Assembly: GCA_026988575.1 (NCBI GenBank)
Contig: JALSKZ010000028.1
Coordinates: 1 to 62,045 of the forward strand
Length of the DNA: 62,045 nt
Direction of reading: 5' to 3'
Source: Thermodesulfobacteriales bacterium
GTDB lineage: Bacteria > Desulfobacterota > Thermodesulfobacteria > Thermodesulfobacteriales > Thermodesulfatatoraceae
This document shows, piece after piece, positions 27,614 through 47,843 of the stretch. The notes under the pieces were generated by a model, which worked only from the letters and a program-made list of their open reading frames with translations, searched no databases and had not been told where the DNA came from. The position numbers and the translations under genes are program-made. Positions within the stretch are counted from its first letter, which is position 1. Each line of letters begins with the position of its first letter.

Positions 27614-28248
27614 AAGACCTACAGTTACTCCAAGAAAAATGGGCCGCCAAAGTTGTCTTGAGCCCCTTAAATAAAAAGGTAACCTTGGTAGCAGGCGTAG
27701 ATGTAGGCTATATCCCCGCCAAGAACCTCTCTGTAGGGGCGGTAATACTGATCGACTTAAAATCTTGCAAGGTGGTAGAGAAACATACGGTAGTACTACC
27801 TACCCCTTTCCCCTATATTCCAGGTTTTTTGTCCTTTAGGGAAATACCTGTAATGTTAGAAGCCATCCAGAAACTCGTTAACAAACCAGAGGTTATTATG
27901 GTAGATGGACAAGGGATTCTTCACCCCCGGGGTATAGGCCTGGCCACTCACTTGGGGCTAACCCTAGGGCTACCCACCATAGGAATAGCTAAAAAACCCT
28001 TAGTAGGTGATTTTGTCCCCCCGGATAAAAAAGCAGGAAGTCTCTCCCCTATTATCTTTAGGGGAGTAATAAGCGGTTTGGCCTTACGCCCTAGAACAGG
28101 CGTAAAACCCATCTATATTTCTCCTGGACATCTTATTACCTTGGAGGAAAGTCTAGAGATTGTAAAAACTTGCCTTAGAGGATATAGGCTTCCAGAGCCT
28201 ATACGCTTGGCCCATCTTTTGAGTCAACAAGGAAAGAAATTAATTTAA
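27598..28248 (+). CDS. nfi: endonuclease V (deoxyinosine 3' endonuclease)
   Basis: Repairs deaminated adenine by nicking near deoxyinosine. GVDVGYIP carries the catalytic Asp of motif I, PYIPGFLSFREIP is the wedge/signature motif, VDGQGILHPRGIGLATHLGL provides the second Asp and structural residues, and GVAKKPL appears as GIAKKPL. The length of 216 residues is normal. It overlaps mpl by 16 bp, and its last 9 bp overlap the convergent HAMP gene that ends the cytochrome operon. Confidence 0.93.
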   Translation: MPPVLKDLQLLQEKWAAKVVLSPLNKKVTLVAGVDVGYIPAKNLSVGAVILIDLKSCKVVEKHTVVLPTPFPYIPGFLSFREIPVMLEAIQKLVNKPEVIMVDGQGILHPRGIGLATHLGLTLGLPTIGIAKKPLVGDFVPPDKKAGSLSPIIFRGVISGLALRPRTGVKPIYISPGHLITLEESLEIVKTCLRGYRLPEPIRLAHLLSQQGKKLI

Positions 28249-28779
28249 TTTGTAGTTGCCTATCCTTTTTTTAACCGCTTCTAGGTATTTTTGGGCCTCA
28301 GCCACCTTCCCTTCTTTTAGGGCCTTATCCAGACCATTAATATCGTTTAGAATCTTTGACATATCTTCCCGCACGGTATCAATAACTACATTGGCCGCAC
28401 TGGCTAATGACTGGAAACGATCTCCACGGCGCAAGCTAACTTTTTTGGTAAGATCTCGCTTTTCCGCAACGTATCGAAGATCTTGCTCTATCCGGTAGAT
28501 CGGCCCGGCAATTTTTTGGGGTAAAAATATAGCGATTAAAAGACCGGCCACTAGGCATATACCACCAGAGGCCAAAATTACCGGGAGTAGGAGATCGCTT
28601 ACATGTTTAATAGTAAGATGGGCCTTATAAAGGCTCTGGCCAATTTCTCGATGGCTAAACAGATAAAGGATTACCAGAGCTATTGAAATGGCCACTAAAA
28701 CTGTCAAAAAGATACGCCATAAGAGCCACCGCTGTAATTCCCACTTTACTTTGAGATTTAGCTTTTTTCGCCTCTCCAT
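28240..28779 (-). CDS. two-helix HAMP-type membrane protein, last gene of the cytochrome operon
   Basis: A protein of 179 residues with two transmembrane helices (about 18-43 and 65-88), then a HAMP-like linker (GPIYRIEQDLRYVAEKRDLT) and a helical tail. There is no methyl-accepting, kinase or cyclase output domain. Similar truncated chemoreceptor-like proteins occur beside multiheme cytochromes in Desulfobacterota, but their role is unknown. ATG 28779 with AGAGGTG upstream is preferred over GTG 28782. It starts 9 bp after the 5-heme cytochrome and is the last gene of the operon. Confidence 0.7.
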   Translation of the reverse strand: MERRKKLNLKVKWELQRWLLWRIFLTVLVAISIALVILYLFSHREIGQSLYKAHLTIKHVSDLLLPVILASGGICLVAGLLIAIFLPQKIAGPIYRIEQDLRYVAEKRDLTKKVSLRRGDRFQSLASAANVVIDTVREDMSKILNDINGLDKALKEGKVAEAQKYLEAVKKRIGNYKLN

Positions 28780-28788
28780 CACGCACCT

Positions 28789-29850
28789 CTACTTTTGAGA
28801 ATGACAGGATAAACAAAGGGCCTCTCCATACTTTCTTAACCTGTACGGATAAGGAGAACCATGGGGATTATGACAAGTAGCGCAGGTCATCACTCCTGCG
28901 GCCAAAGGTAAATCGTTCTTAAGGGCCATATTGGGTTTGAGGGGTACCCCAACGGGGTGAGAGACCCCCAACATACTCTTTTTATGACACTGATAACAGG
29001 CATCTATTCCAGACCAATTCAAGGGTTTCATGTACGGATGGTCCTTGGGTATTTCTTTAGTTTTATTACTAGATATAGAGACAGGGACTCCCCCAAGACG
29101 CCAATCAAAAGATCCGTCACTATAAATTTCTAAGACCGGTTCGTCTAAAGAGGAACGATACAGATGGACCTCGATATCTTGCGCAGGCGGCATAACAGGG
29201 ACTGTCCGCGGCTCAGAAATTTGAAAAGAAAAAGACAAAGGAGGAGCAGGAAGGCCGTCAAAATCTTTGGCCTCCACCGTACACGTATAGGTCTTACCTT
29301 TTACCACGTGAGCCAAGGGGATCACCTGAAAAGTATAATAATTTTCATCCGTCCCACCAGAGACTCCCCCACAGGAGATAAAAACCTGAGTAGGCACATT
29401 AGTCTTGACGCATATTTCGGCCTCTACCCATGGCTCTTCCTGAACACCACAAAACCATACCCGCTCAATCTTTGCCTCTGGGCCTTTAACAAGGGACTTG
29501 GCCGAAGCAAAAGAAAGTATCTTATGAAAGGGAGGAGACATGCTCTGAAACACCAGATCATAGGCCTTAAACTTGGGCGATAGTACTATATAGGCCCGGC
29601 CCCCTCTAAAATGTTGCTTCAAAAACCATTTTACTCCTTGAAGGGAAGCATTCAAATCAGTCGTCGAAAAAGAACCTTCATGACAAACACTACATTTGCC
29701 TTCTATATAAGGAGGATGAAGATGACTACTATGAGGGGGAAGCATTTTATTGGCTAAATGACATTCCTGGCACGTCTTAGCTGGCGCAGGAGCCCCAAAA
29801 CCCAAGCAAACTATTATTAAGAGGTTAAACAGTAAAAACCTGATTCTCAC
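28789..29850 (-). CDS. 5-heme c-type cytochrome with central beta-sandwich-like domain
   Basis: A secreted cytochrome with an N-terminal signal peptide (about 1-24, cleaved near APA-KT). Two heme motifs come early (CQECH, CSVCH). A region of about 200 residues without heme motifs is beta-rich and Fn3-like. Three heme motifs follow near the C-terminus (CYQCH, CATCH followed by NPHG, CLSCH). The GTG start at 29850 is preceded by AGGTGGG. It lies 24 bp below the propeller gene in the minus-strand operon. The heme-domain-heme layout suggests a docking module inserted between electron-transfer ends. Confidence 0.85.
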   Translation of the reverse strand: MRIRFLLFNLLIIVCLGFGAPAPAKTCQECHLANKMLPPHSSHLHPPYIEGKCSVCHEGSFSTTDLNASLQGVKWFLKQHFRGGRAYIVLSPKFKAYDLVFQSMSPPFHKILSFASAKSLVKGPEAKIERVWFCGVQEEPWVEAEICVKTNVPTQVFISCGGVSGGTDENYYTFQVIPLAHVVKGKTYTCTVEAKDFDGLPAPPLSFSFQISEPRTVPVMPPAQDIEVHLYRSSLDEPVLEIYSDGSFDWRLGGVPVSISSNKTKEIPKDHPYMKPLNWSGIDACYQCHKKSMLGVSHPVGVPLKPNMALKNDLPLAAGVMTCATCHNPHGSPYPYRLRKYGEALCLSCHSQK

Positions 29851-29873
29851 TGCTACCCACCTAAAAATTGTTG

Positions 29874-31205
29874 TTATTTACCTACTACAAGACCAAAAGG
29901 TCGACACCCAAGAAAGATTTTCCCTATTAATTCTTCGGAAGCGGTATCTACCACGGCCACGGCCTTTTCTCCTCTCAACGCTATATATAGCCAACCTCTA
30001 CGGGGACAAGAGGCCATAGTAAAAGGACCTTTGCCTACCCTTATCTTCCTCGCCACCGATAGCTGATTTAAAGAAAGCACCGAAATGGTCCCTTCTTTCT
30101 CGTTGCTAACATATATTCGGCTACCCTGACCAAAAACTTGAACGGCCCCCGCACCACTCCTGATTCTCCCTAGGGGCTCAAAAGCCCCTACCCCAAAGAC
30201 ATCTACCATTCCTGTCCCATAATCCGCCACATAGAGGCGATTTCTCCCCACCCATAGCCCCCTAGGTCGTTGCCCTGCCTTTATAGTAGATACCAGATCA
30301 AGGTTGGGAGTAAGGACATAGATATTTTGATCTGATGGTGAAGAAACAAAGATTCTATTTAATAAACTACTGAAGAAAACCTCAGAAGGAGAATAACCTA
30401 AACGTTTTGACAAAACTAAATTACCAGAAAATATATTATAAAGTAAAACATAACTCGAATCAGGATCAGTAATTAATGCCATTTTAGAAGGTAAAAGAAC
30501 AAAGAAAGTAGGAGAACGGACTAACGGTAAAATAAAGTTATCTACAATCCTAAAACTAGAAAGTTCAACCAAACTAAACGTACGTGTTTTATCAGAAAGA
30601 ACATATAGCATATCATTATTATTATCGACGCTCAACCATTTTGGTTGCGAAGGGATATAGAGGGAAGCTTGCACTTGGTTATTATCTGCTCTAACAACAA
30701 ACAATGTAGAGGCATCATCACAGGTAACATAGAGGTTTTCACCTCTAAGTGGACGTTTTTGCAACCTAACATAAAAGGTTGGTTGAAAAACTTTTCCTTT
30801 TAAAGAAGCTTTAACATCCCAAATTAGAAAAATAGAAAGGCTTACATTATCTCTTATAGATACACTTAAAGGCAAAGATAGCTTTTTTTTAGAGATAGAA
30901 ACAACCTGACCATCTACATCAACTTGGCGAAAATACAGATCAATAGAGGAAAAAACTTCTCGATTTAATTCTATATACCCAAGATAGACCTGACCGAAGG
31001 TAGATTTACTACTAACTTTTGAAGGAATATCGCGCAGATTATAAATTCTATTAGTTCCCTTAAGTTCTATACGTTGCAAAGAAATGGTAACATTTTGGGA
31101 AGCAGGATGAATAACATTCAAAAAAATGTTTAGTCTCCCTGCTTGACAAAGATCATTAGAAAAAAAGAAAAATAGAATAACTATTAAAACATACCTTAAA
31201 AACAT
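29874..31205 (-). CDS. secreted YncE-like beta-propeller protein
   Basis: A protein of 443 residues with a signal peptide (about 1-22). An N-terminal beta domain (about 25-155) is followed by a seven-bladed-type propeller of repeats such as NDMLYVLSD, NRIFVSSPSDQNIYVL, NRLYVADYGTGMVDVFG, SRIYVSNEKEGTISVLS and GWLYIALRGEKAVAVVD. Such YVTN/YncE propellers are often found next to multiheme cytochromes. Binding or scaffolding is more likely than catalysis. GGGGAGAAT precedes the ATG. It overlaps the 8-heme cytochrome stop by 10 bp. Confidence 0.8.
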   Translation of the reverse strand: MFLRYVLIVILFFFFSNDLCQAGRLNIFLNVIHPASQNVTISLQRIELKGTNRIYNLRDIPSKVSSKSTFGQVYLGYIELNREVFSSIDLYFRQVDVDGQVVSISKKKLSLPLSVSIRDNVSLSIFLIWDVKASLKGKVFQPTFYVRLQKRPLRGENLYVTCDDASTLFVVRADNNQVQASLYIPSQPKWLSVDNNNDMLYVLSDKTRTFSLVELSSFRIVDNFILPLVRSPTFFVLLPSKMALITDPDSSYVLLYNIFSGNLVLSKRLGYSPSEVFFSSLLNRIFVSSPSDQNIYVLTPNLDLVSTIKAGQRPRGLWVGRNRLYVADYGTGMVDVFGVGAFEPLGRIRSGAGAVQVFGQGSRIYVSNEKEGTISVLSLNQLSVARKIRVGKGPFTMASCPRRGWLYIALRGEKAVAVVDTASEELIGKIFLGCRPFGLVVGK

Positions 31206-32578
31206 ATTCTCCCCGAGAGACTATCTTTGTACCCATGTTTATGACATTTAAGACAAGGGATAGGAGGCTTACCACCCATACCTCCCCCTCCCATATCATG
31301 ACACGTTTTACAATGCTGTCTAGGATAAGGTGCATCATACTCTATATGATGAACTCCTTCCCATTTATTTGTAAGACTAGAATTACCATATAAGGCAGCA
31401 TCGTCTTTATGGCATGCTTTACAAAAGTAGCCAATAGTATTATCATCGATATTTATTTGTTGAGATATAATAACACCGTTTACTTCAGAACGCAGCAGAA
31501 AAGGATTAGGAGAACCATGAGGTTCATGACAGTCAGTACAAGAAGTAATAAAATTGATATCTCGTCCAATACCTACTGTAGAAACATAGGGTTTTTTCAT
31601 ATAAATGATAACTGAAGCAGGATTACGACCGTGCTTATCTGAATAAACCTCGGCACTATCACCATCGTTCATAATTGTATACCAATCTATTTTCCTCAAA
31701 TATCTGCCTAATTCAGTACTATAAATTTCATTAGTAGAATTATGACATGCTGTACAAAATGTTACATAATCTGGCATTTTTTGCCCTGTATAATCAGATA
31801 CACCACCAGGCTCATAGGTACTTTGACTAGAGTAGTAAAATGGAGCTTGATAATGGCTAGGATATAGTTCACTCATACGTTCATCAGTATCATCACCCCA
31901 TAGCGTATTATGTCCTTCTTGTCGGTTGCCAATATTCTTCGAAACGGGCAAAGACACTGCAGAATAATCCGCAGCATTCTGTACATTGTGTTTTATAAGT
32001 TTAGCTAAATGGACGTTATGACAAGCCACACAAGGATTAGATTTATCCTTAAAGAAAGACCAGCCTTGATTTTTGGCAAAACTATAAATATCGTATAAAT
32101 CATGATAGGAAGAATTTGTATAAAGATTTTTTAAATTAAAAGCATCGAAAATAGTATTAACGGTAACAAAACTACTGCCTCCAAAGGTTTTACTATAATC
32201 ATAATTTGTTATACCACCACTTTGGTAAGAAGAGGGGCCATGGCATAAAAAACATATATTATCACTGGCCTCATAGGGACTTTCTGTAACATTAGTATTA
32301 TAATTAGGGGCAAATAAACCAAAACTATTAGGGCCAATAGCCTGACTATTAGGGCCAATAGCCTGACCCTCTATAGAGCCATGTTGTAAATGGCAATGGC
32401 CACAATTACCCCGACCATAAGCACTTAGAGCTGAACGCTTAACACCGAAAATTTTATCACCGTGGGCCGAATCAGTATATTTACCCGCCCAGGAAAAACT
32501 AACGGCCCAACCATACATAAAGACAAAAAGGGCCATTAAAACACTAATAAATTTAGTCTTTTGACGTGTGACAGGCAT
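31196..32578 (-). CDS. 8-heme secreted c-type cytochrome
   Basis: After a signal peptide (MPVTRQKTKF..., cleaved near FSWA-GKY) there are eight CxxCH motifs: CGHCH, CFLCH, CVACH, CTACH, CTDCH, CKACH, CKTCH and CLKCH. Long Asn/Ser/Tyr-rich segments separate them, and this spacing is unlike the compact 26-heme and 16-heme ladders. EPHGSPNP resembles the heme-5 region of the OmcS-like neighbours. ATG 32578 is used, but starts at 32587 and 32614 are possible; all overlap the upstream gene. A 21-bp tandem duplication lies within the coding region. Confidence 0.85.
   Translation of the reverse strand: MPVTRQKTKFISVLMALFVFMYGWAVSFSWAGKYTDSAHGDKIFGVKRSALSAYGRGNCGHCHLQHGSIEGQAIGPNSQAIGPNSFGLFAPNYNTNVTESPYEASDNICFLCHGPSSYQSGGITNYDYSKTFGGSSFVTVNTIFDAFNLKNLYTNSSYHDLYDIYSFAKNQGWSFFKDKSNPCVACHNVHLAKLIKHNVQNAADYSAVSLPVSKNIGNRQEGHNTLWGDDTDERMSELYPSHYQAPFYYSSQSTYEPGGVSDYTGQKMPDYVTFCTACHNSTNEIYSTELGRYLRKIDWYTIMNDGDSAEVYSDKHGRNPASVIIYMKKPYVSTVGIGRDINFITSCTDCHEPHGSPNPFLLRSEVNGVIISQQINIDDNTIGYFCKACHKDDAALYGNSSLTNKWEGVHHIEYDAPYPRQHCKTCHDMGGGGMGGKPPIPCLKCHKHGYKDSLSGRICF
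32325..32366 (-). repeat. 21-bp perfect tandem duplication inside the 8-heme cytochrome gene
   Basis: The unit at 32325-32345 is repeated exactly at 32346-32366. In the protein it duplicates the heptapeptide QAIGPNS between the first and second heme motifs. The length is a multiple of three, so the frame is kept. It looks like a recent slippage or unequal-crossover event. Confidence 0.9.
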
Positions 32579-33647
32579 TGCATCCATTGGTATTAGTTTT
32601 TTCTGGCCATCCATAATAATCCCATCTTAAAATATGTTTGTAAGGTGACCCATGTGCCCTATGACACGATATACACGTAACAATTGCGTCTTTTTGAAAA
32701 GTGATATTTGTTTTAGGAGCAGATACATTTTCGCTCCCCACCGGGGCAATGACAGAATAAGGATTAGAACCACTGGCTCCACTAGCCGCATAATTGCCTG
32801 GATAGTCACGATATTCTGAGTTGATCCCCGTATTACTCATGTCATAATCTGTAGGATGTCTCAACCAAGGGGAACCCCATCCTGCACTATTATCACTAAT
32901 TTGACCGCTACCGTTATGAAAATATCCATGACATTCGGCGCAAAAATAACTTATAGTGGATTTATCTACGTCTGTTTCAGAGGCCCTATCATAACCCTTA
33001 TATTGATTATGGTGAGAAACATCAGGTTGATATTCCCAATTAGGATCTTCATAACCTACAATACCTAATAAGAATCGATAACTACTGCCTACTGTCTTAC
33101 CATCTATAGTGGTATCATCGGCATGATGAGCGCCAATTATGGCCTCAAACTCATCCTGCTTAGATCGATCTCCATGGCACCCATTTGCACCCGCACAGCT
33201 CAACTGAGAAGATAGAGCAGTACCTCCTGGAGGGGTATTCCCAAAAACCGAGTCCTCAGGAAAGGGCCTAACATTGTGGCCCTTGTCATCGCTTCCATTA
33301 GCTACCCAGAAAAAATTACCCCCTGCCAGGGTATTCGTGTTGCTTTCTGTACCGGTCTGGCCGTATAGAGGTTCAGAAGTAGAGTAAACATAAGGAGTGT
33401 AATTTTGACCATTATTAACACCGGTGTGACAACCAAGACAATCATTCACCACTAAGGCCTTGTAGGGACCACTCTTACCCCACGAAGATAATACCCCCCC
33501 ATTTTGGGAATAGTGCATGGTATGACATGACGAGCAGGGGATACCATCTCTAATTTTAGACCAAGAAGGAGCGCTAACCAAACAAAGCAAAAAACTACAG
33601 ACTATGAGAAGTTTTACATATTTAAACACCTCAAAGCCCCCAAACAT
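32553..33647 (-). CDS. OmcS-like hexaheme cytochrome (putative nanowire subunit), copy in the minus-strand operon
   Basis: Secreted cytochrome with a signal peptide (about 1-30) and heme motifs in OmcS-like order: CSSCHTMHYSQNG, CLGCH, GHNV, the odd CAGANGCH (C-x5-CH, 33174-33197), CAECHGYFHNGSG with the downstream WLRHP, CISCHRAHGSP, and a terminal CNACH. The same blocks appear in the two plus-strand paralogues at 44496 and 45637. The resemblance is to OmcS, whose monomers stack into conductive filaments. GTG 33629 is an alternative start just after the upstream stop. It overlaps its neighbours on both sides. Confidence 0.85.
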   Translation of the reverse strand: MFGGFEVFKYVKLLIVCSFLLCLVSAPSWSKIRDGIPCSSCHTMHYSQNGGVLSSWGKSGPYKALVVNDCLGCHTGVNNGQNYTPYVYSTSEPLYGQTGTESNTNTLAGGNFFWVANGSDDKGHNVRPFPEDSVFGNTPPGGTALSSQLSCAGANGCHGDRSKQDEFEAIIGAHHADDTTIDGKTVGSSYRFLLGIVGYEDPNWEYQPDVSHHNQYKGYDRASETDVDKSTISYFCAECHGYFHNGSGQISDNSAGWGSPWLRHPTDYDMSNTGINSEYRDYPGNYAASGASGSNPYSVIAPVGSENVSAPKTNITFQKDAIVTCISCHRAHGSPYKHILRWDYYGWPEKTNTNGCNACHTSKD

Positions 33648-34521
33648 CTATGCGGCCGTTGCCCTCATCTACGATAAAAAGTTTATCCTTGTATATTTTA
33701 ATATCCCAAGGATAGTGTACCTGCCCCAGACGAAAACCCTCCTTTAAAAAGGAATATCGAAAATTACCCTTTTCGTCAAAGATAAAAATCTTTTTTAAGT
33801 CCCTATCTAAGATATAAACATTCTGGTTCTGATCAAACTCAAAGGCTACAGGGAGCACCAGATGCACCCCTTTCAAAGAGAGAATTTTCTCTTTGCCCGA
33901 AACAAGATTTATACCTATCAAACGATGACCCATATTCTCTAAACCCCAAAGCCAATCTCCCCTTATTTTAATATCGAAAAACCCGACAAAATTTCGAATT
34001 TGGGGATATATTACCCTTTCCATATCAAGGGCTTCGTTTAATAAAAGCACTTTCCCCGAAGCACGATCCAATACTAATAATTTATTTTTCCAGTATAATA
34101 TTTTATCAAAAACGACTGGGTGTCCCTTGAAAAACAAAGTGTATCTACGGAGTTTATGCGCTTTAATATCAATAAACACGAGAGCATTATCCAGACGTTC
34201 CGTGAGCCACAACCTTCCCCTTTTGTCCCGCAACATATACATGGGCCCTTTTAGTTGGCCTCCAGCATCAAATTCCTTCAAAGGCTCTCCTTTGAAATTA
34301 AAAGATACAAGCCTATTATGCCCTGTATCGACCACGTAAATCTTCCCCTCTTGGACAAAAATACTCATGGGCTGCCAAAGAGGTGTATCATCAGGAGCCT
34401 TGGCCAAGGAAAAGAGGTAATGAAATTTATAGGCCTGACAAGGCTTGGGCTTTAAGCAAACCCCAAGCCCAAAAGTAAAAACTATTATCGCTATTAATAA
34501 TTCTTGTGACACTCTAGACAT
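33631..34521 (-). CDS. secreted NHL-type beta-propeller protein
   Basis: A protein of 296 residues with a signal peptide (about 1-29). Repeats include GKIYVVDTGHNRLVSFNFKGE, GRLWLTERLDNALVFIDI, NVYILDRDLKKIFIFDEKGN and KLFIVDEGNGRIDVWGL, which are typical NHL blades of a six-bladed propeller. GAGAGG precedes the ATG. It lies between the 16-heme and OmcS-like cytochrome genes and overlaps both. NHL-repeat genes also occur near omcS in Geobacter (from memory), so a role in cytochrome assembly or binding is plausible but not shown. Confidence 0.8.
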   Translation of the reverse strand: MSRVSQELLIAIIVFTFGLGVCLKPKPCQAYKFHYLFSLAKAPDDTPLWQPMSIFVQEGKIYVVDTGHNRLVSFNFKGEPLKEFDAGGQLKGPMYMLRDKRGRLWLTERLDNALVFIDIKAHKLRRYTLFFKGHPVVFDKILYWKNKLLVLDRASGKVLLLNEALDMERVIYPQIRNFVGFFDIKIRGDWLWGLENMGHRLIGINLVSGKEKILSLKGVHLVLPVAFEFDQNQNVYILDRDLKKIFIFDEKGNFRYSFLKEGFRLGQVHYPWDIKIYKDKLFIVDEGNGRIDVWGL

Positions 34522-35666
34522 AGAGCGGCCTCTCCACTAAGTTTCAACTCGTATTTAAAATTGGTCCCCATGGGCTCATGACAAGTGATACAAGTAACCG
34601 GCTGGCCATTTCGGGGGTCCAAGACCTTGTTGCCCACAGGATGGGTAAACTTGCCTTGCGTCTTATGACAACGTACACAAACTTGGTTCCCATCACCATT
34701 TAGCATGGCCGGGTGATTCGAACCATGCGCTTTATGACATTCTAAACAATTGTTTCTCTTGGGATGAATATACAAACTCTCTAATTTCTGTTTATAAGCC
34801 GTAGGATGACAAGAAGTACAAAGTCTAGCAGGTGAGTCTACAAGTAACTCTTTGGTCTCACCCACGTGCGGATTATGACATAAAATACAGGCGTTTTTAT
34901 CATATCCACCCAATAAATGATTATGAAACTTATAGAAAGTTTTCATCTCTTGCTTATGACACTGTAAACACTTATTTATCCCTTTATAAGGAGATTTATG
35001 ACAAACCTTACAATTACCCTTAGCGAAGGGTTTATGTTTAAATGGACGCAACAAATTTCTATTATTACTCTGGTGAGGAGAATGACAAGATAAACAATTT
35101 TTAATATCTTTTCTATCAAAATGGGCCTTCAAAAATTTATCATTCTTTTTGTGACATTTCAGACAAATACTATCTGGTTTCTTATTATTTAAAAACCTAG
35201 TATCAAACCCAAAATGGGGATCGTGACAGACAAGACACTCTCCTTTTGCAAAAGGTTTGTGTAAGTATTTTTCTTTTTTTGCTAACTCTTTATGACAAGA
35301 AAGGCAGGTAGTTTTTGTATCTTTTCTCAATAATGCCTTATATTTTGAGGCATGAGGAACATGACAACGCAAACAAGCTTTTTCTCTAACTGGACGATGA
35401 ATATATACAGCCTGTCTAAACTTTTTTTCTAAATCTTTATGACAAGTAAAACATATATTATTTACCGACTCACGTAGCAAAAACTTATGGCGAGATACAT
35501 GGGGCAAATGACATTTGAGACAATCATGTTTTTTTATTGGATCATGAACATAAGGCCCCGGAATAATTTTATCCTTGGGATGGCATTTAAAACACACCTT
35601 TTGCGCCAACGCAACGTGAATATTAAAAACTAAAAGAGTAAACAAAATCAGGAAAAATCTCTTCAT
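34494..35666 (-). CDS. 16-heme c-type cytochrome
   Basis: A protein of 390 residues with a signal peptide (MKRFFLILFTLLVF..., cleaved near ALA-QKV). I count 16 CxxCH motifs, mostly in paired units: a CxxCH...PH motif, about 25 residues, then CxxCHK (Paired_CXXCH type). Many HxPF and H(K/R)P segments supply distal histidines. Lys-rich, Cys-dense and compact, it reads as a linear heme wire. ATG 35666 overlaps the stop of the 26-heme gene by ATGA, so the two are translationally coupled. Confidence 0.9.
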   Translation of the reverse strand: MKRFFLILFTLLVFNIHVALAQKVCFKCHPKDKIIPGPYVHDPIKKHDCLKCHLPHVSRHKFLLRESVNNICFTCHKDLEKKFRQAVYIHRPVREKACLRCHVPHASKYKALLRKDTKTTCLSCHKELAKKEKYLHKPFAKGECLVCHDPHFGFDTRFLNNKKPDSICLKCHKKNDKFLKAHFDRKDIKNCLSCHSPHQSNNRNLLRPFKHKPFAKGNCKVCHKSPYKGINKCLQCHKQEMKTFYKFHNHLLGGYDKNACILCHNPHVGETKELLVDSPARLCTSCHPTAYKQKLESLYIHPKRNNCLECHKAHGSNHPAMLNGDGNQVCVRCHKTQGKFTHPVGNKVLDPRNGQPVTCITCHEPMGTNFKYELKLSGEAALCLECHKNY

Positions 35667-37597
35667 TTCCGCCCTCCCTGATGACAGGGAGCACACTCCC
35701 CTTTAGCGAACGGTTCATGTTCCACAGGCCACAACATCTTCTTATCTGGACCTCCGTGGGGATCATGACACAAAATACACGAGCTTGTTTTAGGAACTAT
35801 ATTATTATGAGCCTTGATCATCGCCTTATCTATTTTATGACAATCAACACAAATCTTTCCCGCCTGTTTTCTTAATAAGTAAGACAATTTAGAAGCATGA
35901 CTATAATGACACCTAATACAACTATCTTTCTTTTTAACTGGAGGATGAGCATAACCTAGTTGCCAGTTTTGTGCAATTTCCTGGTGACAAGAAAGACACA
36001 AACTATTTAAATCATCGTTTAAAAACCAAACATTAGATGCACCATGAGGATCATGACATTTAGCACAACTACCCTTTTCCGCCGGCGGATGGACAACAGG
36101 CATAGATTTAATCTTTAAAGCCAAATTATTATGGCAATTAAAACAAATTGTCTCGAGAGGTTTCTTTATTTGAAAGGCATAATCAGAAGAATGAGCATCA
36201 TGACATAAAAGACAATTCCCTTCCTTAAAAGGCTTGTGTAATTTTTTAGATTGGTAATTGGCCATAAAGTTTTTATGACAACCTTCACAAAGCTGAGGGA
36301 CACTTTTGTTAAGTAAAAGCTTTTCATTTGACGAATGCGGATTATGGCAAGAAGAACATTGTCCTTTATTGAAAGGCGCATGTAGACTAAAAAGATCCTC
36401 TTGTCGCTTTACATTCTTATGGCAAGAGAAGCAAAGATCTTTCTGTTTTTTTACTAACAAAAATTTATTTTTAGACCAGTGTGATGCATGACACAAGAAA
36501 CAATTATGATCTTTAGAGGGTGGATGCTTAAACTTACCTTCCATTAAATTTCTATGACAAGAAAGGCACAAGTTTTTCTTTTTATCTTTTAAAAGGTCTG
36601 GATATTTTGATATATGTCCTTTATGACAGGCCAAACATTCTCCACTTTTAACAGGTTTATGAACACTTTGATATTTCTCAAAATTCTTTTTATCATATTT
36701 CTTATGACAAGAAACACATAGAAAAGAAGGAGCTTGTTTCAATAGATAGGAATGATAACTAGCATGTGGTCTATGACAAGTAAGACATTTTTCCTCCTGA
36801 TAAGGAGGATGATTACTGCGAGATTTTTCCAATTTATGACACGTTACACAATTGGCATTTTGTCCCTGTTTCAGAAGAAAAGAGCCATTTTTTTCAACAT
36901 GGCACTTGAGACAATCTCCCTTAAGAATAGGTTTATGGACATAAGGCTTTAAGAGAAAAGAATTATCGCCTCCATGTGGATTATGACACTGAACACAGCC
37001 ATTATTAAAAGCAAAACCGAAATGTTTCTCTCGAAGGAGAGACTTGTCCTTATGACAAGATAAACAAAGAGCAGAAGAGTTTTGCTTTAATAAATACTTA
37101 ACATTAGAAGCATGAGGATCATGGCAGTAAAGACATCCCTTATCTAAGGCTTTATGCCGAACTTTATATTTTAAAATATCCTGATGACAATCAAGACATA
37201 TTTGTGAACTTTGTTTTTTTAATAAAAATTTATATTTCGAAGAGTGGGGGTAATGACAGTCATAACACTTTCCCCCTTGTACGGGCTTGTGCATATATTT
37301 CTTTTGAAAGAGAGGAAGATCTTGGCGATGACAATTAAAACAAATACCTGGAGGATTCCCCTTTAAAAAGGCTCCACCAATTATTCCATGAGGACGATGA
37401 CAACCTGTACAATTATTATCTTCTACGGGCTTGTGCACTACAGGGCCATGTTTACGGACCAACTTGGCATACTTTGGGTGACAATCAACGCACGTCTTCT
37501 TGGTTTGAGGAGGTGGGGCCTTTGACACACAAGAAACCACAAAAACACAACAAAATAGGAGAACAAAAAATTTAGCATCTTTAAGAATGCGAACCAT
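35663..37597 (-). CDS. 26-heme cytochrome lipoprotein
   Basis: The N-terminus MVRILKDAKFFVLLFCCVFV continues to a lipobox VVSC (Cys 23), so this should be a lipoprotein. I count 26 CxxCH motifs in 644 residues, in about 13 repeats of a CHxPH unit and a CLxCHK unit roughly 45 residues apart, with HKPV/HPP segments between. No other domain is present. A lipid anchor and a heme ladder of this length suit a wire along or across the outer-membrane face. GGAGG precedes the ATG. It overlaps the isomerase gene by 17 bp and the 16-heme gene by 4 bp. Confidence 0.92.
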   Translation of the reverse strand: MVRILKDAKFFVLLFCCVFVVSCVSKAPPPQTKKTCVDCHPKYAKLVRKHGPVVHKPVEDNNCTGCHRPHGIIGGAFLKGNPPGICFNCHRQDLPLFQKKYMHKPVQGGKCYDCHYPHSSKYKFLLKKQSSQICLDCHQDILKYKVRHKALDKGCLYCHDPHASNVKYLLKQNSSALCLSCHKDKSLLREKHFGFAFNNGCVQCHNPHGGDNSFLLKPYVHKPILKGDCLKCHVEKNGSFLLKQGQNANCVTCHKLEKSRSNHPPYQEEKCLTCHRPHASYHSYLLKQAPSFLCVSCHKKYDKKNFEKYQSVHKPVKSGECLACHKGHISKYPDLLKDKKKNLCLSCHRNLMEGKFKHPPSKDHNCFLCHASHWSKNKFLLVKKQKDLCFSCHKNVKRQEDLFSLHAPFNKGQCSSCHNPHSSNEKLLLNKSVPQLCEGCHKNFMANYQSKKLHKPFKEGNCLLCHDAHSSDYAFQIKKPLETICFNCHNNLALKIKSMPVVHPPAEKGSCAKCHDPHGASNVWFLNDDLNSLCLSCHQEIAQNWQLGYAHPPVKKKDSCIRCHYSHASKLSYLLRKQAGKICVDCHKIDKAMIKAHNNIVPKTSSCILCHDPHGGPDKKMLWPVEHEPFAKGECAPCHQGGRK

Positions 37598-39221
37598 TAG
37601 CTGCCTCCAACTGCCTCCTCAACTCCTTCCATACCCTATTATTGACTTTTATATCGGAACGTGCACGCAACTTTTCAATATATTTTTGCTGCAATTCTTG
37701 AAATTTCTGCTGCTTGAGCATCTTGATAATATGATCCTTGACCATCTCAAATGAATGCACCCTTTTCGGGTATTGACGTATAAGATAAACAATACAATAC
37801 CAGTTATCTTGACCACTCTTGAAGTGTATAATGGGCGAAATATCACCAGGCTTTAATTTGCTGACCGCCTTACGCATTTCTGGTACCAGACGATTGAGAG
37901 GAAAACGCTCTGGACGCACTCCGTGAAATTGGACTTCTTTGCCCACATCAAAGAATGACTCACCCGACTTTATGCGCTTATACACTTCTCTAATAAGCTT
38001 TGGATCCTTGCTCTTTATAACGGCTATCTCTACCATTTCGGGAGAAGTATAGGCTTCTTTATGTTTTTCATAAAACGCCTTAGCCTCCTTTTCTGTTACT
38101 TTAACCTGAGGCCATATAATTTTTTGTTTCAATTCATTAACAAGCATTTGTTTCTTGTAAAAAGAAAATAAATCCTTTAAAGGAGGCTTATTTTCATAAT
38201 GCCTATTCATAGCTTCCATAGCAGTTAGTGTCTGTGCTATATATGTATTAATAAGAAAATGTTTAAGTTTATCTAACTCCTTAGGTGTCACTTTTCTGCC
38301 ATGTAGTCTGAGCTTAACCTCTCTTTTGAGGTTCTCTTGAAACTGTTTGGCCGTAAGTTTATCTCCCTGGATCTGGAGCACCACCTTATCACCCAAATCT
38401 TTAGGCAAAGGTTTTAGATCAATTTTATTTATCACGTCCCAATAAACTTTTACATTATATTTCTTTTTCAATCTCTTTAACAATTCTGCCGTTAATAAAG
38501 CTTCTTCCTTTTTATGAATTTTATAGGCTATCTCTCTTTCTACTCTCTTAAAGTCTTCTTTATCTGGCCCGACCTTTTCTTTAACATATAAAAGAAAATA
38601 AGTCTTATGGTAATATAAAGGCCCCACTATTGAATTTGGGTTAGCCTTAAGAACAGTTTGTCTTAATTCTTTTGGAATAGTTATAGGCCTTTCCCAACCG
38701 AAATCTTTGGCTTTACCAACTTTTTGTAACTTTTCATATAATTTTTCAAAATCTTGCTCTGTATGTACTTTCTTCTTCCACTCATTCATCTCGTTCTGAT
38801 CTTTAGTAAATATGGCCTTAATTCTCAAACGAGGCACATAATTTTTAACATATTCCTTCCAAAGCCTTTCTCTAGATAAATCTATTTTACTATCTACTTC
38901 CTCATTTTTTAGCAGCAAAAGACTTCTAACTTCTAAAAAGACCCTCAACTTATGCTTGTAAGAAGCATCCTCATCCAGAGCCAGCCTTTTTCCTTCGTTT
39001 GATAACAACACCCAATTTATAAAAGAATCTGGACTCTTAGGAGGGTTCATTTTGGGTTCTTTCCAATATTGCCACCACTTTAAATAATCTTCCTTACTAT
39101 ATTCATGTCCATTAATCTTAACCAAATAAGAATCCCAAAAGAAAGCCTTAGCTACTCTAAGGTGGAAAAAGATAGACAATAACAAAAGAACAAAAAAACT
39201 TTTCCGAATTATATTACGCAT
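37581..39221 (-). CDS. periplasmic SurA/PpiC-type peptidyl-prolyl isomerase
   Basis: A protein of 546 residues with a signal peptide (about 1-26). Two parvulin-like regions are recognisable: residues about 130-225 (ending GPLYYHKTYFLLYVKEKVGP) and about 385-490 (PEMVEIAVIKSKDP...LKPGDISPIIHFKSGQDNWYCIVYLI). The second is closer to consensus. Helical segments surround them as in SurA chaperones. A likely role is folding or outer-membrane delivery of the barrel or cytochromes of this operon. The start is taken at ATG 39221; a TTG at 39233 is possible. Confidence 0.8.
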   Translation of the reverse strand: MRNIIRKSFFVLLLLSIFFHLRVAKAFFWDSYLVKINGHEYSKEDYLKWWQYWKEPKMNPPKSPDSFINWVLLSNEGKRLALDEDASYKHKLRVFLEVRSLLLLKNEEVDSKIDLSRERLWKEYVKNYVPRLRIKAIFTKDQNEMNEWKKKVHTEQDFEKLYEKLQKVGKAKDFGWERPITIPKELRQTVLKANPNSIVGPLYYHKTYFLLYVKEKVGPDKEDFKRVEREIAYKIHKKEEALLTAELLKRLKKKYNVKVYWDVINKIDLKPLPKDLGDKVVLQIQGDKLTAKQFQENLKREVKLRLHGRKVTPKELDKLKHFLINTYIAQTLTAMEAMNRHYENKPPLKDLFSFYKKQMLVNELKQKIIWPQVKVTEKEAKAFYEKHKEAYTSPEMVEIAVIKSKDPKLIREVYKRIKSGESFFDVGKEVQFHGVRPERFPLNRLVPEMRKAVSKLKPGDISPIIHFKSGQDNWYCIVYLIRQYPKRVHSFEMVKDHIIKMLKQQKFQELQQKYIEKLRARSDIKVNNRVWKELRRQLEAANGSHS

Positions 39222-39223
39222 TA

Positions 39224-39802
39224 TTAACTGCAACCCCCTAAATGTTTAGCATGCCATTGATCTAAAACTTCCTGCACCATACGCTCTACAAGCCCCGTAA
39301 TGGTATAGACACGACCAAAATGTAAAATTTTACGATATTCTTCTGCTGTCCGTGCATGATATGTAGACCATAACAATTTGCCCGTTTTTATATCTCTAAC
39401 TTCAATAATAAAAGCGAGCTTAATATTATCATTTTTTTTCTCTAATTTTAATACTCTACCAGAAACCAGAGCCTGAGCCTTCATTCTCTGGGCCAACAAT
39501 TTCCTTAAAGAAGGAGAAATATTTTTACCTATTAAAAGTCTTTCCATTATCATAAAATGACGTACCTGTCCTTCAGGTATCACTTGGAAGCTAGGATCTT
39601 CTATTAAGGCATTCATAAAAACCCGATATAATAAGCGAGAAATAGCCGGATCATTGGTCTCATTTTTGAAGGGAATCAAAACAATACGACAAGGACGAAA
39701 ATAATGTGGAGCTAAATCTAAACGAGGCAACCTAGACGAAGCACATCCATACGTTAAAAAAAGTATTAATACTAAAGTAAACTTTAAAAATCTTCTACCC
39801 AT
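39224..39802 (-). CDS. CsgG/TolB-N-like lipoprotein
   Basis: A protein of 192 residues with a probable lipobox TYGC (Cys 20). CRIVLIPFKNETNDPAISRLLYRVFMNALIED is the pattern of the CsgG/FlgT/TolB N-terminal alpha/beta fold, followed by AQALVSGRVLKLEK...LAFIIEVRDIKTGKLLWST. Proteins of this shape include CsgG, the curli outer-membrane export channel, and LpoB/FlgT-type accessory lipoproteins. It lacks the extended barrel-forming loops I would need to call it a channel. It overlaps the upstream gene by 19 bp and ends 2 bp from the isomerase start. Confidence 0.65.
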   Translation of the reverse strand: MGRRFLKFTLVLILFLTYGCASSRLPRLDLAPHYFRPCRIVLIPFKNETNDPAISRLLYRVFMNALIEDPSFQVIPEGQVRHFMIMERLLIGKNISPSLRKLLAQRMKAQALVSGRVLKLEKKNDNIKLAFIIEVRDIKTGKLLWSTYHARTAEEYRKILHFGRVYTITGLVERMVQEVLDQWHAKHLGGCS

Positions 39803-41403: not shown

Positions 41404-41991
41404 TTAGCGCAAGGTGCGTAATAAATCTTGAACCAGATCAAAACTTAGCTGAGTGAGATCTTTACTACGCAGACCAAAGACACGCCCCAAGGTACTATAA
41501 CCGCTGGCTGTACCACTGGCCTGCCAGACGATTTCTCCGGTAGAGCCATCTATTAAAGTAAGGGTTAAGGCCACAACAGGATAACTATACGAACCATCGC
41601 GGACTATTTCATAGGCATCCACCGAACCGGTAATTAAACCTTGAACACCTAATTTTTTGGCGATACGGCGCAACGTAGCCTTATTATACACCCCTTGCTC
41701 ACCCACTACCTCCTCCAATAGGACCATATCCACCAGAGAGCGGTCAACTACATCAAAAATACCTTCGGTAAGTAACTCGGTCATGACTATATTTCTTAAG
41801 CGCTCGGCGGCAAATTTTTGTTGCGTATTATTTTGAAATTTGAGTACGGCTACACGTTTGATATATGTCGTATCAACTCCTGGCCTCAAAAAGGATTTCT
41901 GTACATAAGAGGCGCCACAAGAGGATAAGACAAACATCACGAGCAACCCGAAAAAGACCTTAAAAATATTAGACTTAAGAATATTATTCAT
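41404..41991 (-). CDS. CsgG-family outer-membrane lipoprotein
   Basis: A protein of 195 residues with lipobox LSSC (Cys 25). IKRVAVLKFQNNTQQKFAAERLRNIVMTELLTEGIFDVVDRS is a clear CsgG-family pattern, followed by AKKLGVQGLITGSVDAYEI, VALTLTLIDGSTGEIVWQASGTASG and a C-terminal helix. Of the three CsgG-like proteins here this is the closest to CsgG proper, although shorter than the curli channel (about 260-275 residues). GAGGTT precedes the ATG. It lies 27 bp after the beta-barrel gene. Confidence 0.78.
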   Translation of the reverse strand: MNNILKSNIFKVFFGLLVMFVLSSCGASYVQKSFLRPGVDTTYIKRVAVLKFQNNTQQKFAAERLRNIVMTELLTEGIFDVVDRSLVDMVLLEEVVGEQGVYNKATLRRIAKKLGVQGLITGSVDAYEIVRDGSYSYPVVALTLTLIDGSTGEIVWQASGTASGYSTLGRVFGLRSKDLTQLSFDLVQDLLRTLR

Positions 41992-42018
41992 AATAACCTC
42001 CAATATATTACTTAATGC

Positions 42019-44019: not shown

Positions 44020-44048
44020 TAAATATATCCTATTGTTTTGAAACTCAA
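44020..44048 (-). promoter_or_regulatory. candidate promoter of the minus-strand cytochrome operon
   Basis: On the minus strand TTGAGT (44043-44048), a 17-bp spacer and TATTTA (44020-44025) lie just ahead of the barrel gene. The match is moderate (4 of 6 and 3 of 6), and the predicted leader would be only a few bases long. It is therefore a weak call. Confidence 0.25.
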
Positions 44049-44495: not shown

Positions 44496-45581
44496 ATGAA
44501 ACACAAATGGTTAATGTTAATTATTTTTATGGCTTTGGTTTTGGCCTTGCCTCAAGGGTCATGGGCCCGGGTGCAAGGGGCATGTTCAGACTGTCACACC
44601 ATGCATAATTCCCAAAATGGGGCAACGATTTACGCAAACGGTCCGTATCGGGCCCTCACCAAAGGCGATTGTGTGGGATGCCATACGGGGACCAATAGCG
44701 GTAGTAACAACATCCCCTACGTCCTGGATAATTCCCAGCCTAACTACGGCACCTTTGGAATTTCTGGGAATACCCTGGCTGGTGGAAACTTCTATTGGGT
44801 CAAGAACGGAGACGATACCACAGGCCACAACGTAGAGGGTATAGCTAATGTGGATCAAAACATCGGCATGACTCCTCCGGGCTGGAATTCTGGCTTTAAC
44901 GCCAACGGCCAGATTGCTCCTAATGGTTGGGATCATCAATTAACTTGTGCGGGTGTATATGGCTGTCATGGTAAACATGAAGAAGTTGATGATTTTGCTG
45001 ATATCCGCGGTGCCCACCACGCCGATGACAGCACCATCGATGGCTCCACGGTTGGTACGAGCTTCCGTTTCCTCTATGGGATAAAAGGTATTGAAGACTC
45101 CGATTGGGAGTATCAGCCCACCTCTACCGAACACAACCAGTACTATGCTGTAAATCGTACCGATGTAAGCAGCATGCCTTCCGATACAGCTACTATTAAT
45201 TATCTATGTGCGGAGTGTCATGGCGATTTCCACAGCGGTACTGGTGTAAGTTACACAGGTTCTGGGTCTCCGTGGCTGCGTCACCCCTCTGACTTTGCCT
45301 TGAGCAGTGCTTCTGGTGCGGGTTATACCGACTATCCTGGTCCTTTTGGTACTAAGGGTACCTATTGGCCAGGTGCACCTCTGGGAAGCGACTTGACTGG
45401 GGGAGTTTTAAGCACCGTAACCTTTAGTGGGACTGACGATATCGTCCTTTGCATCTCCTGTCACCGCGCACACGGTTCTCCTTACGCAGACCTGCTCCGG
45501 TGGGATTACAATAACTGTAAGGCTTCCAGCGGAAACGGTAGTGAATGTGGTTGTTTTGCCTGTCATACCAACAAGTATTAA
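44496..45581 (+). CDS. OmcS-like hexaheme cytochrome (putative nanowire subunit), first plus-strand copy
   Basis: A protein of 361 residues with signal peptide (cleaved near SWA-RV). Heme motifs run CSDCHTMHNSQNG, CVGCH, CAGVYGCH (C-x5-CH, 44946-44969), CAECHGDFHSGTG with SPWLRHP, CISCHRAHGSP and a terminal CFACHTNK. OmcS of Geobacter has the same order of landmarks: CHTMHNS, a second heme, GHN, a third heme, CANCHTDIHN with LRHP, CLSCHRAH and a terminal heme. In OmcS these hemes form filaments conducting electrons outside the cell. The strong ribosome-binding site and long leader suggest high, regulated expression. The filament role is inferred. Confidence 0.87.
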   Translation: MKHKWLMLIIFMALVLALPQGSWARVQGACSDCHTMHNSQNGATIYANGPYRALTKGDCVGCHTGTNSGSNNIPYVLDNSQPNYGTFGISGNTLAGGNFYWVKNGDDTTGHNVEGIANVDQNIGMTPPGWNSGFNANGQIAPNGWDHQLTCAGVYGCHGKHEEVDDFADIRGAHHADDSTIDGSTVGTSFRFLYGIKGIEDSDWEYQPTSTEHNQYYAVNRTDVSSMPSDTATINYLCAECHGDFHSGTGVSYTGSGSPWLRHPSDFALSSASGAGYTDYPGPFGTKGTYWPGAPLGSDLTGGVLSTVTFSGTDDIVLCISCHRAHGSPYADLLRWDYNNCKASSGNGSECGCFACHTNKY

Positions 45582-45592
45582 GGTTAAAAGGA

Positions 45593-45621
45593 CCAAGAGA
45601 GGGGGGAACCTCCTCTCTTGG
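45593..45621 (+). terminator. strong hairpin between the two OmcS-like genes
   Basis: CCAAGAGAGG (45593-45602) pairs perfectly with CCTCTCTTGG (45612-45621) around a 9-nt loop. Only TTT follows, so it is a poor intrinsic terminator. It is better read as a partial terminator or an mRNA-stabilising 3' hairpin that would raise the level of the first cytochrome over the second. The next ribosome-binding site begins 6 bp later. Confidence 0.5.
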
Positions 45622-45636
45622 TTTATGGAGGGGGGT

Positions 45637-46743
45637 ATGAAAAGAAATATTCTCGGAGTAACAATTTGGATCTTGGCGTTCATAATAGGTCTTTGTACTT
45701 CAAGCCACGCTCGTGTTTCTGGGGTATGTTCCAATTGTCATACTATGCATAATTCCCAAAACGGACAACCGGTATCTGCTGACGGACCAAACACCAATCT
45801 CACCAAATATGATTGTGTAGGGTGTCATTCTTCAAGCACTTCCTCTACTACCTATCAGCTAGGTGATAGTACAGTACCTGTAGTCCTTTATACTGGTGGC
45901 AGTGCCCCTACCCAATATCTCGCGGGGGGGAATTTTTGGTGGGTTAAGGAAGGTCTTGGTAATACCGACGGCAAGATTGGTGACCCTAAAGGTCACAATG
46001 TATTTCTAGGAGAAGATGACGATTTTCTGACTGAAGCTCCTGGTTCTTCAATAAATTGTACCAATAGCTGCCATACACGGCTTAGCGAAAAGGCTCAGGC
46101 TGGAGACCCCAGGCTCCAAGGCAAATACGGATGTTCGGGTTGTCATGTTTTTGTAAGGCATCACGCCAATGATCACCCCAACGGCAATTACAATAATGTG
46201 GTTGGCAAAGATGGCGGATGGTACAGATATTTGCCTTCTCCACATGTTACCAACTATGGAGTCGAAGGCATTGAAGACAGTGATTGGCAGGCCACGGTAA
46301 GTGCTTCAGACCATAATGAATATTTAGGTAAAGCTACTTCTTTCACTAATTCAGGTGGCTTTATGGCCATCGGGGCCGACACCATGACGGCCTATTGCAC
46401 CGGCTGTCACGGGAATTTCCACATAGAAAATGCTGATTATAAGGGAGGTTCTCCTTGGCTCCGTCACCCCTCGGATGCTGTCATTCCTGACCGCGGAGAA
46501 TACGCCAATTACACTACTTATAATCCTCTTGCCCCGGTAGCTAGGCCAGATCTCTCTAATTTTAATGGTCCTAGTGCTACAGTAACCCCAGGACAGGACA
46601 TGGTTATGTGTCTATCCTGTCACCGTCCTCACGGAAGCCCCTATGATGATATTCTCCGTTGGGATTACTCTCAATGCACGGTGGGTAATTCCAGTGAGTG
46701 TGGCTGCTTTATTTGTCACACCAATAAAGGAACCTATCAGTAG
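45637..46743 (+). CDS. OmcS-like multiheme cytochrome (6-7 hemes), second plus-strand copy
   Basis: Starts at ATG 45637 after GGAGGGGGG; the frame is open 210 bp further, inside the previous gene and its hairpin. The protein of 368 residues has a signal peptide (cleaved near SHA-RV). Motifs: CSNCHTMHNSQNG, CVGCH, GHNV, then CTNSCH (C-x3-CH) and, about 28 residues on, CSGCH, then CTGCHGNFH with SPWLRHP, CLSCHRPHGSP and CFICHTNK. There are six canonical motifs plus one with a spacing of three. It is a clear paralogue of the 44496 gene but altered in the heme-3 region. Confidence 0.86.
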   Translation: MKRNILGVTIWILAFIIGLCTSSHARVSGVCSNCHTMHNSQNGQPVSADGPNTNLTKYDCVGCHSSSTSSTTYQLGDSTVPVVLYTGGSAPTQYLAGGNFWWVKEGLGNTDGKIGDPKGHNVFLGEDDDFLTEAPGSSINCTNSCHTRLSEKAQAGDPRLQGKYGCSGCHVFVRHHANDHPNGNYNNVVGKDGGWYRYLPSPHVTNYGVEGIEDSDWQATVSASDHNEYLGKATSFTNSGGFMAIGADTMTAYCTGCHGNFHIENADYKGGSPWLRHPSDAVIPDRGEYANYTTYNPLAPVARPDLSNFNGPSATVTPGQDMVMCLSCHRPHGSPYDDILRWDYSQCTVGNSSECGCFICHTNKGTYQ

Positions 46744-46757
46744 ATAGGAGGAAGCTT

Positions 46758-47843
46758 GTGAAGCTTAAGGGGCCCAGAAAAGACATGCGCATCATCCTGT
46801 TTCTGGGCCTCTTTTCCTTTCTGTTCCTCTCTTTGTCGTCCGTTACGAAGGCTCAACGAGTTGATCAACATGCCTTAAGGAAGGCCCTCGAAGGTCGAGC
46901 CCAGCATGTAGAAGCCAAAGTAATTGCTGTCTTAAAGCACGACGACCTGGGCCAGGTCTTTTCCTTCCCGGCCTATCTGGCCTACGACCCGGTAAGAGAC
47001 GAACTATACGTAGTAGATACCGCCAAAAGTCGCATCGTTGTATTTAGTCCGGATTTATTCCCGGTCTTTTCTCTGGGAAAGGGCCGTGGTGTTACCTCTC
47101 CCGCCGGGCTCACCATAGATAATGAAGGTAACATATACCTGTGTCAGGGAACCAGCGAAGAGGATCCCAAGCCTCATATATCTATTTTCAACGCCGCCGC
47201 CATCAAAATAAAGGACATCTATTTCTCAGGGTTCCCAGGGGCCGAAAATTTTTCGCCTCACAAGATAGCCTTGGGGAAAAACGGCCAACTTTACGTAACC
47301 GGTTTAGATTACCGGGGGCTAATAGTACTGGACAAAGACGGACACTATTTAAAGACTATTGCCCCTAAAGATAGTATTATCCCCAACACACCTCCCCAAA
47401 AGGCCATTATCACCGATGTATTTGTGGATGGTAAAGGCCGCCTCTATCTCCTAAGTGAAGAGATGGGACGTTTTTATGTTTACGACGCTAAGGAAAAATT
47501 CCTCTTTAAAGGGGGAGAAAAAGGAGGAGGTCCTGGAAAACTCAGCCGCCCAAGGGGTATCTGTGCTGATCCTGTAAGAGGATTTATCTATGTAGTGGAT
47601 TATCTACGTCACACTGGGCAGGCTTACGACTACAATACTGGCAAATTGCTCTTTGAGTTTGGTGGTCGGGGGTGGAGCCCAGGCTGGTTTAATTATCCTT
47701 CAGATATAATGGTAGACAAATTTGGCCGGGTATACATAGCCGATCTATTTAATCACCGCGTACAGGTACTGGAGTTATCCACAGGGGAGACAGAAACTCC
47801 TTTTAGTAAGGTCCCTTCATTCTTACCCCTAGAAACTAGATAA
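46758..47843 (+). CDS. secreted NHL six-bladed beta-propeller protein
   Basis: A protein of 361 residues with a GTG start after AGGAGG and a signal peptide (about 1-32). Blades include DELYVVDTAKSRIVVFSPD, GNIYLCQGTSEED, GQLYVTGLDYRGLIVLDKDG, GRLYLLSEEMGRFYVYD, GFIYVVDYLRHTGQAYDYNTGK and GRVYIADLFNHRVQVLE. It starts 14 bp after the second OmcS-like gene and is clearly in that operon. The third propeller of the island, it is another hint that propellers are partners of these cytochromes. Confidence 0.85.
   Translation: MKLKGPRKDMRIILFLGLFSFLFLSLSSVTKAQRVDQHALRKALEGRAQHVEAKVIAVLKHDDLGQVFSFPAYLAYDPVRDELYVVDTAKSRIVVFSPDLFPVFSLGKGRGVTSPAGLTIDNEGNIYLCQGTSEEDPKPHISIFNAAAIKIKDIYFSGFPGAENFSPHKIALGKNGQLYVTGLDYRGLIVLDKDGHYLKTIAPKDSIIPNTPPQKAIITDVFVDGKGRLYLLSEEMGRFYVYDAKEKFLFKGGEKGGGPGKLSRPRGICADPVRGFIYVVDYLRHTGQAYDYNTGKLLFEFGGRGWSPGWFNYPSDIMVDKFGRVYIADLFNHRVQVLELSTGETETPFSKVPSFLPLETR

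Follow-up and report, generated by a model that had tools for sequence, protein, structure and literature searches.

Operons that join a 26-heme and a 16-heme cytochrome to a peptidyl-prolyl isomerase (PPIase) and a six-bladed propeller have been reported from SEEP-SRB1, Desulfuromonadales and Thermodesulfobacterales (Skennerton 2017, PMC5539420). The OetABI conduit, with OmcX, OmcS-like and Apc2a proteins as filament candidates, was subsequently named and mapped to Thermodesulfobacteria among others (Murali 2023, PMC10553843). In the passages of PMC12977616 and PMC13194489 that relay Shen 2025, which concern Geobacter only, OscH is assigned to the folding of OmcS, OscE-G to its secretion and OscD to its morphology, and GSU2495 appears in these passages as a 26-heme protein of ~70 kDa. 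The island examined here occupies positions 28240-47843 (19.6 kb) of contig JALSKZ010000028.1 from Thermodesulfobacteriales bacterium (GenBank assembly GCA_026988575.1), whose 62,045 nucleotides constitute the window. By gene content, gene order and heme numbers it is assigned to the osc/oet type, a kind of locus already described, including in Thermodesulfobacterales. The original prediction had not recognised the exact gene set in any described system, whereas the set is a described one; the Oet-type conduits, named there as the nearest idea, were the right lead.

The osc operon of Geobacter sulfurreducens (GSU2493-GSU2505 region) matches the island in gene order and in its parts, which are OmcS-family cytochromes, propellers, a barrel, CsgG-type genes, a PPIase, a 26-heme cytochrome and a 16-heme one. 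The island differs from it in that its OmcS-like proteins belong to a sister clade, its 26-heme protein is predicted to be lipidated, it carries a third CsgG-like gene together with octaheme, pentaheme and HAMP genes, and one propeller stands downstream rather than before the barrel. With the OetABI cluster it shares the core of 26-heme and 16-heme cytochromes, PPIase and six-bladed propeller, as well as the barrel and the OmcS-like genes; the OmcX-type cytochromes with 11-12 hemes are absent from the island and present in relatives. Such genes are described as 'often' accompanying OetABI (PMC10553843), and so are not strictly defining. One or two 12-heme OmcX-like genes were seen beside an NHL propeller in relatives from the family, the order and Desulfuromonadia (L107, L135, L139-L148). 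Two features characterize the island as an osc operon, namely linked OmcS-family hexaheme genes and a block of fixed order. The OetABI set, that is, a barrel, a periplasmic multiheme cytochrome and a surface multiheme lipoprotein, is likewise present together, the 16-heme and 26-heme proteins being the candidate OetA and OetB. The osc/oet system thus gains a thermophilic and well-conserved representative, and because the OetABI conduit and the Osc assembly readings concern the same genes, they can be tested directly against each other.

The conservation of gene order was followed by scanning GTDB contigs with the cytochrome encoded at 32553-33647, which gave 69 named loci; neighbourhoods from further genomes and Geobacter-like loci were added. 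The common order is barrel, CsgG-like, CsgG/Ig, CsgG-like, PPIase, 26-heme, 16-heme, propeller and OmcS-like. The run of eight genes from barrel to propeller is unbroken at 35 distinct loci, and the shorter PPIase-26-heme-16-heme run was found at 58, so that the mapping of neighbourhoods proposed in the original prediction bore out a shared block. Its carriers are Thermodesulfobacteria, Desulfobulbia, Desulfuromonadia and contigs labelled Nitrospirae. G. sulfurreducens itself was not found in the genomes searched; its place was taken by Geobacter-like species, chosen by an OmcS at 62-72% identity to an approximate query sequence. Their order is NHL-OmcS-OmcS-like-propeller-barrel-CsgG-CsgG/Ig-PPIase-26-heme-16-heme-propeller, with two CsgG-type genes versus three here, and their 26-heme protein is 33-36% identical to that of the island (E down to 4e-117). 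Machinery and OmcS-like genes occur together in 32 of the 33 machinery-bearing genomes, and among ten order-mates without machinery only one holds any OmcS-like sequence, a fragment of 59 residues, counts that are inflated by the relatedness of the genomes. This C-terminal fragment (G309:C1:489919-490080) may be a relic of a lost island.

Sixteen genes make up the island: the 13 of the minus strand run from 44007 to 28240, the three of the plus strand span 44496-47843, and a gap of 488 bp separates the two sets. The gene calls and the two divergent operons had been correctly predicted; that almost all genes overlap was overstated, since overlaps occur at 8 of the 12 junctions in the long operon and at none in the short one, which has two. 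Also borne out were seven multiheme cytochromes with 71 CXXCH motifs (5, 8, 5, 16, 26, 5 and 6 per protein, from 28789 rightwards), against 0.68 expected after residue shuffling of the same proteins. The earlier counts of 6, 6 and 6-7 for the OmcS-like proteins resolve into five CXXCH plus one CX5CH in those encoded at 32553 and 44496, and six plus one CX3CH in the third. The latter gene starts at ~45637, where GGAGG lies upstream, and the start at 45427 is incorrect. The single PPIase and the three beta-propellers (YncE/lactonase, NHL/DUF5128 and NHL types) were recovered by Pfam. Of the three CsgG-like proteins, one was clearly upheld and one is a weak LpoB match (~1e-3); the 493-residue protein has no CsgG match in Pfam and is considered related to the weak one because its own profile finds the latter at 6e-12.

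All three hexaheme or heptaheme cytochromes belong to the OmcS family. In a PDB search, a profile of 40 family members matched OmcS at E=1.8e-30 over positions 33-333; cytochrome c found it by phmmer on its own (Table 1), and cytochrome a alone had no phmmer match in the PDB and needed the family profile. The suggested comparison with OmcS, OmcE and OmcZ thus came out for OmcS, the sole strong match: 7tfs, which we take to be OmcE, scored 4.7e-4 over 48 positions, and the family profile found no PDB match for OmcZ. The island proteins have the CHTMH, GHN, RHP and CHRAH motifs in common with the OmcS nanowire (PDB 6ef8, 6nef), and five of the six CXXCH are in register; they differ at the third site, which is CX5CH in two of them, and in the seven sites of the third protein. 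No further OmcS-like genes were found elsewhere in this genome. From their family membership, these three cytochromes are putative wires.

Taken together, the gene content suggests that the island probably serves to export OmcS-family filaments and to wire them to the periplasm. The OmcS-family subunits would acquire their hemes in the periplasm and fold there with the help of the PPIase, pass through the large barrel with the CsgG-type lipoproteins as helpers, and polymerize on the outside of the cell to form heme wires. Between the base of the wire and periplasmic carriers, electrons may be moved by the 16-heme and 26-heme cytochromes together with the MtrB-sized barrel; the propellers could be docking or morphology factors. 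We favour one system that serves as both conduit and assembly machine; the two functions are not separable by sequence. An island of the extracellular electron transfer type, with filament cytochromes and export and folding helpers, agrees with the original prediction. The complete conduit plus wire described there is better called putative.

Several points weigh against this proposal. Two of the three filament candidates do not have a canonical third CXXCH. The three proteins fall in a clade of 129 members that is sister to Geobacter OmcS/OmcT (FastTree, 152 sequences; support of the split 0.95/0.89) and, lying outside the Geobacter OmcS clade and without the plain six CXXCH, they are not true OmcS orthologues. 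The AlphaFold2 model of cytochrome a (predicted local distance difference test, pLDDT, 80) has OmcS 6ef8 as its only PDB match with a significant E (4e-5), which lends little support because the template modelling (TM) score is just 0.39. For the barrel, the highest TM score among the 50 PDB matches listed is 0.41, to MtrB (6r2q_B), well below what would call a fold and no proof of homology. Finally, no member of the OmcS family other than Geobacter OmcS is known to polymerize (PMC12977616), and the importance of OmcS wires for current production is disputed (PMC13194489).

Alternatively, the locus may be a conduit only, as proposed for OetABI (PMC10553843): the barrel would hold the 16-heme protein and dock a surface-lipidated 26-heme protein, with filaments being exported elsewhere, for example by type IV pili or type II secretion. 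This is consistent with the lipobox of the 26-heme protein, here as in 57 of 63 relatives, which is how OetB was described. However, the Geobacter-like orthologues have no lipobox. The 26-heme protein also passes the MtrA/DmsE-type decaheme model of NCBIfam (268 bits; cut-off 192), a score that repeated CXXCH pairs may inflate. The AlphaFold2 model of the barrel (pLDDT 84; predicted TM score 0.67), in which 11 long strands, a separate non-barrel beta domain at residues 224-367 and 17 further long strands, ~28 barrel strands in total, were read from the DSSP string, upholds the single predicted outer-membrane barrel, although its sequence has no family match. MtrB being the highest-scoring barrel among the matches listed would suit a conduit, yet the size would fit a cytochrome-filled conduit and an export pore alike. 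The tight linkage to OmcS-like genes, CsgG-type lipoproteins and PPIase fits export, and the passages on Shen 2025 cited above give these very genes secretion and folding roles. We regard a conduit alone as unlikely.

The opposite alternative, in which the two large cytochromes (26 and 16 hemes) act on the filament subunits as chaperones or in heme/redox quality control rather than as an electron path through the membrane, appears distinctly unlikely. It would account for the near-invariant heme numbers (of the distinct relatives, 62 of 66 have exactly 26 CXXCH in the one and 54 of 63 have exactly 16 in the other, the exceptions including contig-edge fragments and a few non-orthologues), for the position beside the PPIase at the 58 loci, and for the near-strict co-occurrence with OmcS-like genes. 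Nevertheless, 42 hemes across two proteins would make an improbable chaperone, and that the 26-heme protein is lipidated in most lineages points to an electron role at a membrane surface. A system that is not extracellular, whether it stores electrons in the periplasm or belongs to a nitrite, tetrathionate or Hmc-type pathway, is highly improbable, given that the NrfB/NrfH/HmcA-type NCBIfam matches of both proteins are weak, far below cut-offs and attributable to repeated CXXCH pairs, that the island has no catalytic subunit, and that a barrel, CsgG-type lipoproteins and the OmcS family are present; the prediction had named profile matches to nitrite or tetrathionate reduction among the things that would refute it.

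MtrCAB was also considered, in view of the MtrB-sized barrel and the MtrA/DmsE-like cytochrome score. The proposed profile check did not recover the MtrA, MtrB and MtrC trio: no MtrC-type decaheme adjoins, no sequence similarity between barrel and MtrB was detected, and the structural similarity is weak, so membership was rejected. Within the barrel, residues 224-367 weakly resemble F5/8 type C domains (PDB profile E 0.002; Pfam matches in 5 of 18 family members, best 1.7e-4). We found no published description of such a domain inside a barrel of this kind.

The CX5CH motif (CAGxxGCH) raises the question of a sixth heme. The profile alignment matches it, allowing for three inserted residues, to CSSCH, the heme 3 site of OmcS. 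C151, C157 and H158 are invariant in all 94 proteins of the group that includes cytochrome a, as are the candidate distal histidines H45, H124, H174, H175, H244 and H264, while H332 is kept in 92 and H213 in 89. CX5CH is present in 86 of the 92 OmcS-like proteins whose CXXCH count is exactly five. On the other hand, in the AlphaFold2 model of cytochrome a residues 149-159 form a hairpin of two facing beta strands, one bearing C151 and the other C157, where a disulfide fits equally well, and the five CXXCH of the same protein lie mostly in helical turns. Register, invariance and sufficient histidines speak for a possible heme at this site, the hairpin geometry of the model against it. None of the papers returned by the literature search for CX5CH names the motif. 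Should CX5CH bind heme, the 'pentaheme' OmcS-like type may have been miscounted, the heme chain would run on through site 3 without a break, and a heme-attachment spacing for which we found no description would be added. A coordinate-based check for the Desulfofervidus OmcS-like protein HS1_000170 (gene at 170 kb, genome G038) led to a protein with seven CXXCH, and no claim of CX5CH is made for the published T. torris protein on that account.

The pentaheme cytochrome gene is followed directly by the gene for a HAMP protein with two transmembrane segments at 25 of 27 distinct loci. The insertion point of the pair varies, either after the propeller or between CsgG-type genes; the pair was not seen in Geobacter-like loci, and no published description of it was found. 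Redox sensing or tethering can be speculated as its role. It is tempting to go further and propose that CX5CH supplies a sixth heme at the OmcS heme 3 position in the 'pentaheme' OmcS-like proteins that predominate outside Geobacter, making the widespread wire of sulfate-reducing thermophiles a continuous hexaheme chain, and that the pair forms an undescribed redox-sensing or inner-membrane arm; we hold this combined proposal tentatively, as slightly less probable than its contrary.

The genes of the island are listed in Table 1.

Table 1. Genes of the island in window coordinates; Osc names are proposed, letter by letter, from gene order and length.
Feature	Coordinates	Strand	Assignment and evidence
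Outer-membrane beta-barrel, 662 residues	42019..44007	-	OscE by order; OetI-type; AlphaFold2 model
CsgG-like lipoprotein	41404..42003	-	OscF by order; CsgG (PF03783) 4.4e-10, LpoB 2.2e-10
CsgG-like N-domain and FlgD-Ig-like C-domain, 493 residues	39784..41265	-	OscG by order; FlgD_ig 3.4e-5
Third CsgG-like lipoprotein	39224..39802	-	LpoB 9.7e-4; profile from 493-residue protein 6.3e-12
Periplasmic parvulin-type PPIase	37581..39233	-	OscH; PF13145 2.8e-22
26-heme cytochrome with lipobox	35663..37597	-	OscI; candidate OetB; 26 CXXCH
16-heme cytochrome with signal peptide	34494..35696	-	OscJ; candidate OetA; 16 CXXCH
NHL-type beta-propeller	33631..34521	-	OscK; DUF5128/NHL; synteny
OmcS-family cytochrome a	32553..33647	-	5 CXXCH and CAGxxGCH (CX5CH)
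Octaheme cytochrome, conserved accessory, start uncertain	31196..32614	-	8 CXXCH; MtrC/MtrF domain II/IV 2.3e-7
YncE/lactonase-type beta-propeller	29874..31205	-	Probably OscD; PF21783 1.2e-5
Pentaheme cytochrome with internal heme-free domain	28789..29850	-	5 CXXCH
HAMP-type inner-membrane protein, two transmembrane segments, no output domain	28240..28782	-	Family HAMP 3.1e-10 in 6/19 members
OmcS-family cytochrome b	44496..45581	+	5 CXXCH and CX5CH
OmcS-family cytochrome c	45637..46743	+	6 CXXCH and CX3CH (7 sites); phmmer OmcS 6ef8 1.1e-8
NHL beta-propeller, partner of filament genes	46758..47843	+	NHL 2.8e-21

An assignment of the barrel to OscD was dropped, as Geobacter-like loci show a propeller of ~470 residues before the barrel, matching the 473 residues of OscD (PMC13194489). 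This propeller, of the YncE/lactonase type, stands directly before the barrel in Desulfofervidus-like loci as well. The octaheme gene adjoins an OmcS-like gene at many relative loci, and an NHL propeller lies beside omcS-like genes in Geobacter-like loci too. A profile of the 493-residue protein has matches at E <= 1e-40 in 30 Desulfuromonadia and 63 Desulfobulbia genomes. The GC content of the island is 39.8%, against 47% in its flanks. A similar dip, tracking the GC of each genome, is seen in relatives from the family and is not seen in Desulfobulbia; for this reason the dip is weak evidence of transfer, and recent horizontal acquisition was not retained. A promoter scan of the divergent gap gave three matches versus 2.2 expected.

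The nearest named relative locus in the cytochrome scan is that of Thermodesulfatator autotrophicus (71% identity), and the genome that carries the island encodes full-length DsrA and a NapC/NrfH-family protein, which fits the predicted Thermodesulfobacteriota-like thermophile in the form of a Thermodesulfatator-like sulfur reducer. Reduction of sulfate or sulfur compounds is accordingly likely, and an inward flow of electrons from a partner is as plausible as a flow outward to an acceptor. Thermodesulfobacteria are partners of anaerobic methanotrophic archaea (ANME-1c) in methane oxidation cultures at 70 degrees C, where they highly express an extracellular 'pentaheme' OmcS-like cytochrome (PMC9539880), a partnership reported for the cultures of that study.

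Genes of the osc type also occur on contigs labelled Heimdallarchaeota and Chloroflexi, and an OmcS-like gene on one labelled Woesearchaeota (L035, L049, L087). One of these, JAMOVR010000148.1 (L035), is 46-66% identical to the window over eight genes; all three are probably misbinned contigs of metagenome-assembled genomes. In both the window (26186-27613) and Thermodesulfobacterium hydrogeniphilum (L052 17002-18300), the cassette is followed a short distance downstream by a Mur-ligase-like (Mpl-type) gene, hinting at an old shared site. Near the right end of the island, window positions 48661-50952 encode an HdrA/FlpD-like iron-sulfur flavoprotein of 763 residues, a possible redox link.

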